The position numbers were made by a program, and so were the translations under genes. The notes below the pieces were generated by a model that was not told the DNA's origin, did not search any database, and saw nothing but the letters and a program-made list of their open reading frames with translations. Shown here in pieces: positions 3,969-16,505 of a stretch of 20,300 nt of DNA (the stretch's first letter is position 1; each line of letters starts with the position of its first letter). Source of the DNA: a virus; the IMG/VR virus record IMGVR_UViG_3300042691_028576, positions 1 through 20,300 of that record, one strand, 5' to 3'.

Positions 3969-4448
3969 ATGAAAAACCTATTTAAATCCCTATTCCCGTG
4001 CTTTTTCCCAAAGAAAAGCAATACCGAAAGTTTGCCACAATATTCCGCAGCAACCGCAAACGCTCAAAATGTAATTAACTCGATTTTCTTCCTGGAGCGA
4101 CTTAATTCGTATCGGGAATTATTGGCATTAAAAAGCCTTGAATTGTGCAAAAATCAAAAGATATACGACATGTGTTATAGTCATGTTTTGCACATGGAAA
4201 AATCCGGAAATGCAAACCACGACAACCAATTTGAAAGGCACGACTACATTAATTGGCTATTTTGTAAACAAGTCGATAACAGGGAATGCGTGGCAAAAGG
4301 GTATTCATCACCTCAAGCATACCTAAACGCTTTTTTAAATTCACCAAAGCATAAAGATGCGTTGATCAACCCAAACATGACCCATGCCTGTATCGTGTTT
4401 TCCTACGATAAAAAATACCTTATGGTTTTTTTGTATGAGTTGAAATAA
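3969..4448 (+). CDS. CAP (SCP/PR-1-like) domain protein
   Basis: This 159-aa protein looks like a small CAP superfamily domain, usually an extracytoplasmic module whose biochemical role varies. Seen features: LERLNSYRELLALKSLELC at residues 42-60 (the family's first helix, LNxxR type); MCYSHVLHMEKSGNANHD at 68-85, matching the helix and histidines after it; NRECVAKGYSSPQAY at 104-118 in place of the usual GENIA-G-S; and FLNSPKHKDALINP at 122-135, matching the SPxHr-nil motif. It finishes with two strands. The N-terminus (MKNLFKSLFPCFFPKK) is short and basic-hydrophobic, suggesting weak membrane attachment or a poor signal, but not a clear lipobox. CAP proteins are uncommon in phage replication regions; a role at the cell envelope or host interaction is inference. 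Family call is moderate because motifs are divergent. Confidence 0.7.
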   Translation: MKNLFKSLFPCFFPKKSNTESLPQYSAATANAQNVINSIFFLERLNSYRELLALKSLELCKNQKIYDMCYSHVLHMEKSGNANHDNQFERHDYINWLFCKQVDNRECVAKGYSSPQAYLNAFLNSPKHKDALINPNMTHACIVFSYDKKYLMVFLYELK

Positions 4449-4485: not shown

Positions 4486-4513
4486 TTAGATTAAATCTAA
4501 TTCACTATATTTG
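4486..4513 (+). promoter_or_regulatory. Candidate promoter with palindromic operator-like site
   Basis: TATATTTG at 4506-4513 matches the Bacteroidota -7 consensus TAnnTTTG exactly. Directly upstream, TTAGATT (4486-4492), A, AATCTAA (4494-4500) is a perfect 7-bp inverted repeat located between where the -33 and -7 elements would lie. No good -33 TTTG is present. The ATG at 4518 follows by only 4 bp, so transcripts would be leaderless or start inside the coding region unless a later start is used. The palindrome suits a dimeric repressor or activator. Confidence 0.5.
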
Positions 4514-4517
4514 TTAC

Positions 4518-4985
4518 ATGGAAAAACCTAAGCAAATAGCGATTGAAAAGCCTGTTTTTTACCTTGGAATCGACCCCGACGTATCAAAGTCAGGGGTTTG
4601 CCTTTGGGATTCAAAAAGCAAAGTAATTCAAGAGCTAACTTGCATGACTTTTCCCGTTTTACTCGACTTTTTAATGTCACTAAAATTGCACCATGCAACC
4701 AAGTTAAAAGTCGTTATTGAAGCGGGCTGGTTAAACAAGTCGAATTGGCATTCTAAATTTAATGCATCACACGCTTTTAACGCAAAGATTGGTGAACGCA
4801 CTGGAGCCAATTTTGAAGTAGGCAAAAAGCTATTTGAAATGTGCGAGCATTACGGGATTGATGCAATTTTGGCAAAGCCTAAAAGGTCAAAAATCAATGC
4901 TAAGGATTTTTCTAAAATAACCAAATATACGAAGCGGACCAATCAAGAAATGCGAGACGCTTGTATGATGGTTTTTGGATTTTAA
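4518..4985 (+). CDS. RuvC-like Holliday junction resolvase / RNase H-fold nuclease
   Basis: This 155-aa protein is a likely metal-dependent endonuclease that cuts branched DNA during phage recombination or before packaging. The RNase H-fold signature is visible: YLGIDPDVSKSG (Asp19) on the first strand, VVIEAGWLNK (Glu68) on the fourth, and a C-terminal QEMRDACMMVFG helix with Asp147. Length fits RuvC-type enzymes (150-170 aa). A TTG at 4452 in frame would add 22 residues, but that segment contains the promoter and palindrome and encodes a lysine-rich run, so ATG 4518 is preferred. It could alternatively be another RNase H-like phage nuclease; the exact substrate is not shown. Downstream lies the tRNA fragment. 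Confidence 0.8.
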   Translation: MEKPKQIAIEKPVFYLGIDPDVSKSGVCLWDSKSKVIQELTCMTFPVLLDFLMSLKLHHATKLKVVIEAGWLNKSNWHSKFNASHAFNAKIGERTGANFEVGKKLFEMCEHYGIDAILAKPKRSKINAKDFSKITKYTKRTNQEMRDACMMVFGF

Positions 4986-5014
4986 ACACTAACTTAAAAT
5001 TATAAAATTATGCA

Positions 5015-5056
5015 AATCTAAAGTTGAGGTCACAGGTTCGAGTCCTGTCCTCTCCA
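5015..5056 (+). other. tRNA 3'-end fragment, candidate phage attachment core (attP)
   Basis: Bases 5032-5048 form a complete T-arm: ACAGG, loop TTCGAGT, CCTGT. They are followed by CCTCTCC (5049-5055), an acceptor 3' strand, and A at 5056 as discriminator. Upstream AGGTC (5027-5031) fits a five-base variable loop and AGTTG (5022-5026) an anticodon-stem 3' strand. No matching 5' half (GGAGAGG, D-arm) occurs before it, so this is not a functional tRNA. Tyrosine integrases commonly use tRNA 3' ends as att cores, which is the simplest reading. By position the anticodon would be TCT (arginine), but position 33 is A rather than T, so that identity is weak. No integrase is in the window. Confidence 0.7.
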
Positions 5057-5062
5057 CAAAAA

Positions 5063-5134
5063 AAGCCGATAATAGCAAGGCTTGCCCGTGATTGTTGTGC
5101 TGTAAAGCAATCACGGGCGAACGGCTAAAAAAAA
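5063..5134. promoter_or_regulatory. Structured element with two competing stems
   Basis: GCCCGTGATTG (5084-5094) and CAATCACGGGC (5108-5118) form a perfect 11-bp hairpin with a 13-nt loop. Next to it, AAGCC (5063-5067) can pair with GGCTT (5079-5083), giving a second hairpin that abuts the first. Alternatively AGCCG (5064-5068) can pair with CGGCT (5122-5126), enclosing the large hairpin. The two arrangements exclude each other. A-tracts flank both sides, so on the minus strand the outer stem is followed by T7 and could act as a terminator. On the plus strand it ends 22 bp before a winged-helix gene and could act as an attenuator or small RNA. Confidence 0.65.
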
Positions 5135-5156
5135 GACCAAAACTAAATCAATTAAA

Positions 5157-5525
5157 ATGCTGAAATCACAAGGGCAAAAGGTATATGTAAACGGGGTTGA
5201 AACCCGAAACGCTGAATTGATCGGATTAGCTTATTTAGACATGCTTTCAAGTGCTGGGATAAACGAATCTGAGAAAAACAGGCTAACCGAGGTTTTTTTA
5301 AAACATTTGCTCACTAAAAACCTACGATTAACCCCTGAAAGAGAAAAGATGCTATCAATCCTTTTATCAATGGACCAGCCCAATCCTGTTACTTTTTCTG
5401 AATTAGTAATGCAGCAAGGAATTTGCCGTGCAACCTCTTACAATTTCATAAAATTATCAATCGAGGCGGGAATAATTGAAATTGCTTCTGCAAAATACTA
5501 TTTCAACACTAACCTAAATTTATAA
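5157..5525 (+). CDS. Small winged-helix DNA-binding protein
   Basis: This 122-aa protein most likely binds DNA and may regulate early or middle phage genes. The C-terminal half (about residues 58-115) reads LTPEREKMLSILLSM, PVTFSELVMQQGICRATSYN, FIKLSIEAGIIEI and YYFN, which follows the helix-turn-helix plus wing layout of MarR/Fur-type winged helices: helix 1, helices 2-3 with ICRATSYNFIK as recognition helix, then a two-strand wing. The N-terminal 55 residues are a helical region that could dimerise. A palindromic site lies upstream of the RuvC-like gene, and a bistable hairpin precedes this gene; a link to either is inference. The winged-helix call is from pattern only. Confidence 0.6.
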   Translation: MLKSQGQKVYVNGVETRNAELIGLAYLDMLSSAGINESEKNRLTEVFLKHLLTKNLRLTPEREKMLSILLSMDQPNPVTFSELVMQQGICRATSYNFIKLSIEAGIIEIASAKYYFNTNLNL

Positions 5526-5527
5526 AG

Positions 5528-5908
5528 ATGAAAACAATTTACAACACGTTTATTCGTGTAACATCGCAGGAGCAATGCGATAGGCTCAAACAAGTTTGTA
5601 TTGATAATAGGTTGCAGATTTGGGATTTTTCTGAATCATTTGATTTTGAGGGGGTCAATTCAGAGCCTGTTTTTACGTGTTGTTCAGATGGTGATTTTGC
5701 TATTTACAACGACTACGAATTGACAGGCGAAACCCAAGTAACCGAAGCCGAATGGATGCAACTGCTTGTCGAAGAAAAAAACAATCCTACTATTTTTGAT
5801 ATTCAACAACGCATCAACAAAGCCCTCGAATACCTTGAATCCTTTAAAGATTGCGACCAAAACAAGCGTTTAATAAATTTACTACGACATGGTAAAATTA
5901 TAGATTGA
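5528..5908 (+). CDS. Hypothetical 126-aa phage protein
   Basis: I do not recognise a function. The first ~85 residues (MKTIYNTFIRVTSQEQCDRL, then a stretch with EPVFTCCSDGDFAIYNDYEL and TEAEWMQLL) look like a small mixed alpha/beta domain found in flavobacterial phage hypotheticals. The last 35 residues are a charged helix (IQQRINKALEYLESFKDCDQ). It starts 2 bp after the previous stop, so it is cotranscribed and probably coupled with the winged-helix gene. It ends with tandem stops TGA TAA. Confidence 0.7.
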   Translation: MKTIYNTFIRVTSQEQCDRLKQVCIDNRLQIWDFSESFDFEGVNSEPVFTCCSDGDFAIYNDYELTGETQVTEAEWMQLLVEEKNNPTIFDIQQRINKALEYLESFKDCDQNKRLINLLRHGKIID

Positions 5909-14133: not shown

Positions 14134-14727
14134 ATGCTATCACAACAAAGCATAGATTCACTTAAAAGCCGAATCGGTTTTGGAAAACCTTTGGAAGAAT
14201 CATTCCCCTTTGATTTGGGGGATGATTTGACCATTGGCACTTCGGGCTTAACCGTTGCCTTTTTTCATTCGTTAGCGACAGTTGAAAATTTACACGCTTG
14301 TTTGCCACAGGTGTATGAATTGGAAACCGACAAAGAGGCGTTTGAAAACTACTTGGACAATTTGAGAATCCAAGCCGTAACGAACTCGATTAACGAGCTT
14401 GTTTACTCAAACAAAGGGTACAACCCCGATAGTGATTACAATGATTTAGTAATGAAAAACATTTCCGTTTTCGATTCTGTAATTGGCTACCAATTAGCCT
14501 GTTTACTACTTGAAACGTTTATGGTTACAAATCGAAGTAACATTCACGAACGTAACGCAAAGTTATCAATTGCTAATTTGAAATTAGAGGTGAACGGATG
14601 GCGTAATGAGCAAGGAATATTGGTTCAGGCTGGACTTGGAACGCACTTGAAAAAAGCGCAATTAAAAGCCTCTCGAAAACTATTCCCTCTCACTCACATC
14701 ATTCAAAACGCTTCGGATAAGTGGTAA
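14134..14727 (+). CDS. Putative head-tail connector protein
   Basis: This 197-aa, mostly helical protein follows the capsid gene in the position of head completion proteins, which seal the portal and join the tail. Segments such as ENYLDNLRIQAVTNSINELV, FDSVIGYQLACLLLETFMVT and RSNIHERNAKLSIANLKLEV fit a helical bundle. I do not recognise a named family with certainty. A short dyad (GTTATT/AATAAC, 14107-14125) lies upstream but is probably too weak to matter. Confidence 0.65.
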   Translation: MLSQQSIDSLKSRIGFGKPLEESFPFDLGDDLTIGTSGLTVAFFHSLATVENLHACLPQVYELETDKEAFENYLDNLRIQAVTNSINELVYSNKGYNPDSDYNDLVMKNISVFDSVIGYQLACLLLETFMVTNRSNIHERNAKLSIANLKLEVNGWRNEQGILVQAGLGTHLKKAQLKASRKLFPLTHIIQNASDKW

Positions 14728-16462: not shown

Positions 16463-16505
16463 AAAGCACTATCGGTATCGTAGTTGATAAGATAGTGCTT
16501 TTTTT
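16463..16505 (+). terminator. Rho-independent terminator inside the tail gene cluster
   Basis: AAAGCACTATC (16463-16473) and GATAGTGCTTT (16491-16501) form a perfect 11-bp stem with a 17-nt loop, followed by a T-run (16499-16505). It separates the abundant tube-protein transcript from the genes leading to the tape measure. Upstream, TTGAGCG occurs twice (around 16427 and 16446) as a short direct repeat. Confidence 0.85.

Follow-up and report, generated by a model that had tools for sequence, protein, structure and literature searches.

A tRNA 3' half followed by a stable predicted hairpin between two phage genes: a possible intercistronic mRNA structure

Gene context of the element

The whole stretch of DNA analysed here, hereafter the window, comes from IMG/VR, where it forms a linear and probably partial virus record of 20,300 bases. 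It encodes a phage Dam-type methylase, a beta clamp, a RuvC-like resolvase, an SSB, a terminase, a portal protein and a major capsid protein, all located on the + strand, as are all assigned genes of the window, and its right end is occupied by an open tape-measure-like frame. Since the best terminase matches among phage records were mostly phages of Croceibacter, Cellulophaga and Chryseobacterium, the phage host is probably a member of the Bacteroidota. The early region of the phage also carries a CAP-domain gene (cysteine-rich secretory protein family; 3969-4448), and a run of nine G residues is present at 2560-2568 in this genome of 38% GC.

The element under study spans positions 5063-5134, between a RuvC-like gene and a putative winged-helix gene, and its end lies 22 nt before the start codon of the latter (ATG 5157), as originally predicted. 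The locus comprises the following features:

4521-4985, + strand: RuvC-like Holliday junction resolvase gene, the upstream neighbour (PHROG 1770, E 1.6e-18)
4986-5021, + strand: leader-like stretch acactaacttaaaattataaaatt, then ATG CAA ATC TAA (5010-5021), from sequence
5027-5056, + strand: 3' half of a tRNA gene, from sequence identity and an Rfam clan match
5027-5031, + strand: variable loop AGGTC
5032-5048, + strand: T arm ACAGG/TTCGAGT/CCTGT
5049-5055, + strand: acceptor 3' strand CCTCTCC
5056, + strand: discriminator A
5058-5064, + strand: A-run (U7 on the minus strand), from sequence
5063-5068, + strand: shared strand AAGCCG, with partners at 5079-5083 or 5122-5126
5079-5083, + strand: GGCTT, partner in state A (-28.5 kcal/mol)
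5084-5118, + strand: main hairpin with a perfect 11-bp stem (13 bp when one G-U is counted), from stem search and fold
5122-5126, + strand: CGGCT, partner in state B (-29.8 kcal/mol)
5127-5134, + strand: A8 on the 3' side of the stem, no rightward intrinsic terminator, from sequence
5157-5525, + strand: winged-helix-like protein of 122 aa that includes a Fur-like DNA-binding segment (match to Pfam FUR at E 0.02, below the cut-off)

The RuvC-like ORF, which could alternatively start at ATG 4518, has homologues in 57 viral loci. A flavobacterial-type -7 box, TATATTTG, is situated just 5' of this gene, at 4506; in the interval separating the gene from the winged-helix gene, the + strand has no match to TAnnTTTG, the flavobacterial consensus (PMC9723704). 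At the sensitivity used, searches of viral contigs, GTDB genome contigs and GenBank phage records returned no homologue of the 5157-5525 protein. The small protein encoded by the gene that follows (5528-5908) has an N-terminus, MKTIYNTF, that is conserved in four other viral contigs.

A tRNA 3' half upstream of the hairpin

The sequence adjoining the element had been labelled a tRNA fragment, and this label is correct: the T arm and the acceptor 3' strand are recognisable as the 3' half of a tRNA. A phage tRNA gene carried by two viral contigs, L003 and L004, which are near-identical to each other across the tRNA region, shares 28 identical nucleotides with the window (5032-5059). In the predicted fold, the T arm pairs with a probability of 0.99, and the Rfam tRNA/tmRNA clan matches the 3' end only (E 7.8e-07, given as a truncated piece). 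The T arm, the variable loop and the acceptor 3' strand of a functional tRNA are thus present, and a complete cloverleaf with a paired acceptor stem and an anticodon is absent. ARAGORN reported no tRNA, the expected 5' acceptor strand, GGAGAGG, has no exact copy on the + strand of the window, and no copy with one mismatch was found on that strand near the fragment.

Two other tRNA-related identities were rejected. A match to tmRNA (ssrA) reached 20.2 bits, compared with a gathering score of 47, and was confined to the 3' tRNA-like end; a permuted or split tRNA was discarded because a 5' acceptor strand was found close to the fragment on neither side. A literature search for truncated phage tRNAs gave nothing.

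Aberrant tRNA-like phage genes were encountered in other viral contigs, at L003:3659-4042 (minus strand), L117:120-265, L145:190-290 and L020:12338-12406. ARAGORN missed those of L003, L117 and L020, the three on which it was run, while the L003 gene (both copies) and the L020 gene reached the Rfam tRNA threshold. As judged by eye, the L117 gene has a D arm of the Leu type, its T arm is intact, and its anticodon/variable region is longer by roughly 65 nt.

Directly upstream of the tRNA half, the leader-like stretch acactaacttaaaattataaaattATGCAAATCTAA opens a frame of only three codons. It resembles sequences found ahead of other phage genes in the window, for example aacactaacctaaatttataaag before 5528 and gaactaactttaaaaaaacaact before 6478, and it is possible that 4986-5021 represents the 5' remnant of a lost gene.

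A perfect hairpin flanked by two exclusive pairings

Every sequence detail of the original prediction was borne out. The arms of the 11-bp perfect hairpin, GCCCGTGATTG (5084-5094) and CAATCACGGGC (5108-5118), are fully complementary, and the computed fold lengthens the stem to 13 bp by adding a U-G and a U-A pair. The 72-nt element (5063-5134) folds at -29.8 kcal/mol, with a z-score of -5.6 and none of 200 shuffles equally stable. The main hairpin pairs with a probability of 1.0 in all contexts folded, whether the flanks adopt state A or state B. Perfect stems of at least 11 bp with at least 6 G/C occur once in the window and in none of 40 whole-window shuffles; without regard to composition, three perfect stems of at least 11 bp were observed, as against a mean of 0.175 in shuffles. 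Among 72-nt regions on the + strand of the window, the element is the second most stable. The first, at 14161-14257 (-30.6 kcal/mol), is located at the start of the 14134-14727 gene.

On the coding strand, the stem is followed by A8 (5127-5134) rather than by a U-run, and a terminator scan allowing loops of up to 8 nt listed no rightward intrinsic terminator at the element. Elsewhere on the + strand, an intergenic 11-bp hairpin followed by a T-run (16463-16501) looks like a normal intrinsic terminator, unlike the hairpin at 5084.

The central claim of the original prediction, that one strand can pair with two partners, holds at the level of base complementarity: AAGCC (5063-5067) complements GGCTT (5079-5083), giving state A, and AGCCG (5064-5068) complements CGGCT (5122-5126), giving state B. 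In constrained folds these mutually exclusive states are nearly isoenergetic, at -28.5 kcal/mol (A) and -29.8 kcal/mol (B). Their computed balance shifts with the amount of flank included, the probabilities of A and B being 0.07 and 0.87 for the 72-mer, 0.50 and 0.44 for 4986-5156, and 0.81 and 0.16 for 4986-5220. Nascent RNA is predicted to fold into A first (P = 1.0 when ending at 5118 and 0.995 at 5124) and to favour B later (0.85 at 5130). An overlapping alternative 5-mer pair arose in 0.04% of flank shuffles, in a test designed after the motif had been seen. On these predictions, two RNA states are plausible.

In the same models, the A/B switch is without visible output, because neither state contains a rightward terminator and the leader and start codon of the next gene are equally accessible in both (0.71 in A and 0.67 in B for the leader; 0.34 and 0.31 for the start codon). 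Two exclusive folds of similar energy do exist, but the step from these to an attenuator, riboswitch or regulatory small RNA is unsupported: the U-run is lacking, access to the translation start is unchanged, and no family in an Rfam 15 search of the region reached its gathering score. The element looks more like an ordinary stable hairpin than like a switch. The loop complement that had been pointed out, AGCA (5074-5077) and TGCT (5098-5101), is indeed present, but as a loop-loop contact it is at chance level, being matched in 16% of loop shuffles. The geometry of such a contact would also be awkward, as no linker separates the two abutting helices.

Search for relatives of the element

The collections searched yielded no homologue of the element. 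An exact search for the stem in viral contigs gave one match in an unrelated setting, an inverted repeat with identical 11-bp arms and a longer, different loop (L085:2192-2238). A gapped search for the flanking pairs yielded 116 stretches, and the hairpin layout appeared in none of the loci screened. The likeness of L192 and L199/L234 to the element was attributed, by eye, to an open frame running through the same letters, and these loci were rejected as relatives. The loci retrieved as relatives of TerL (80 kept), RuvC (57) and the 5528 protein (4) likewise lacked the element, and the search for a winged-helix relative in them found none.

A truncated tRNA gene with a constitutive hairpin as the favoured reading

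We favour, tentatively and somewhat short of calling it probable, the interpretation that the locus is a truncated phage tRNA gene whose downstream hairpin is now a constitutive intercistronic mRNA structure. A deletion would have removed the 5' half of the tRNA and fused the 3' half to the leader-like stretch behind the RuvC-like gene; a single junction of this kind, between the start of a lost gene and the tRNA 3' half, appears to be the simplest history. The hairpin would then be transcribed within a rightward message comprising the RuvC-like gene, the element, the winged-helix gene, the 5528 gene and the SSB gene. There, like other stable intercistronic hairpins, it could constitutively mark or protect an RNA end in the stretch that separates the RuvC and winged-helix cistrons, and no switching driven by a ligand or a protein would be involved.

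This interpretation is preferred because the hairpin forms fully regardless of state and is far more stable than its shuffles, because the 28 nt shared with the L003/L004 tRNA gene coincide with the lack of an exact GGAGAGG on the + strand, and because the leader and start codon of the next gene are equally open in A and B. The arrangement of transcription signals, with all assigned genes on one strand and a -7 box before the RuvC-like gene and none before the winged-helix gene, argues in the same direction. So does a parallel order in L137, seen among the 23 distinct phage tRNA genes present in the fetched loci: there a 12-bp hairpin begins 8 nt after a tRNA-like gene and leads on to A8, a short spacer and an ATG.

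Several observations count against it. The data searched contain no homologue of the element; the 5-bp alternative pairings are rarer in flank shuffles than an incidental origin would lead one to expect; a hairpin with so perfect a stem inside a decaying region suggests selection; and a perfect stem of this kind is missing from the 80 nt next to most of the other phage tRNA genes checked, so that the order in L137 is a parallel and not a rule. If this ordinary reading is right, the locus illustrates the decay of a tRNA gene in a phage and shows how a stable hairpin between cistrons can pass for a riboswitch.

Alternative explanations

The element might instead be a DNA operator, an 11-bp inverted repeat with a 13-bp spacer located 38 bp before ATG 5157 and bound by the winged-helix protein in autoregulation, with the RNA fold being incidental. 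The perfect arms of the repeat and its position directly 5' of a gene whose putative winged-helix product has a Fur-like segment for DNA binding are consistent with this proposal. We nevertheless consider it unlikely, as a flavobacterial-type promoter is lacking on the + strand between the two genes, an operator would leave the flanking 5-bp pairings unexplained, and typical wHTH operators are shorter than 11-bp arms with a 13-bp spacer.

Halves of tRNA genes also raise the question of phage integration, given that tRNA 3' halves are classic attP cores. Lysogeny linked to tRNAs has been described (PMC10865867), and a comparable tRNA-like 3' end, also without annotation, is present in Enterococcus phages phiFL1-3. 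The tRNA half would accordingly be the attachment site for a host tRNA gene ending in CACAGGTTCGAGTCCTGTCCTCTCCAC, and the inverted repeats would be recombination or accessory sites. This reading is quite unlikely: no integrase is found among the assigned genes of the window, in a scan that took in some of its small ORFs, although the record is partial and an integrase may lie elsewhere in the genome; the neighbours are the RuvC-like and winged-helix genes, and the site lies between the RuvC-like and SSB genes; and the exact 27-nt 3' end occurs in 0 genomes of a GTDB collection of 84,980 species, which may not include the host.

Read on the minus strand, the locus could act as an intrinsic terminator of leftward transcription, or could encode a short antisense RNA that starts just past the TAGTTTTG box (5145-5138) and ends in U7 (5064-5058). 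On that strand the pairing of state B places CGGCU directly before U7, in a fold predicted at -24.9 kcal/mol, and a match to TAnnTTTG is present at 5145. However, the box at 5145 is one of 22 on the minus strand of the window and has no TTTG partner at -33; no minus-strand gene is recognised here; and the small hairpin adjoining U7 amounts to just -4.0 kcal/mol and is unlisted in the terminator scan (loops up to 8 nt). We regard a minus-strand element as decidedly unlikely.

A regulated two-state RNA, whether attenuator, riboswitch or protein-sensing leader, in which A/B switching controls the winged-helix or downstream genes, seems very unlikely. Exclusive states within 1.3 kcal/mol of each other, a predicted co-transcriptional order of A before B and the scarcity of overlapping 5-mers in flank shuffles fit such a switch. 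Against this, the states differ in neither a rightward U-run nor access to the start codon, no Rfam family, homologue or sensor-like domain was recognised, and the loop-loop match is at chance level; beyond the pairing itself, the proposal has no positive support. More remote still is a phage-specific two-state RNA in which the T-arm/acceptor 3' piece would act as a processing or protein-recognition module and the A/B switch would set the expression of the downstream operon, from the winged-helix gene to the SSB gene; were the switch real, a piece of a tRNA would have been reused in a regulatory RNA not described before. We also rejected a short inverted-repeat transposon flanked by A7/A8 target duplications, its ends being only 5 bp long, with no relatives and no support.

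Comparison with known systems

The window shares with tRNA-overlapping attP sites a tRNA 3' half within a phage genome, and differs from them in having no integrase nearby and no host tRNA with the same 3' end in the GTDB representatives searched. As in transcription attenuators and riboswitches, a single strand has two exclusive partners, whereas a terminator/antiterminator or ribosome-site output, an Rfam match and a recognised sensor are missing. The GC-rich stem-loop recalls that of intrinsic (Rho-independent) terminators, and the minus-strand reading also supplies their U-run; the coding strand has A8 instead of U after the stem.

A phage tRNA gene with a hairpin behind it in an operon, as in L137 (2950-3260), likewise combines a tRNA sequence, a GC-rich perfect hairpin within about 30 nt, an A-run and then the next gene's start. 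The window differs in keeping only the 3' half of the tRNA and in flanking its stem with two extra 5-bp alternative pairings. Finally, while the role proposed for the window hairpin derives from sequence analysis, it has in common with the stable intercistronic mRNA hairpins of phage and bacterial operons, which serve in the protection or processing of RNA ends, a long perfect stem, genes on the same strand and a downstream region free of a U-run.
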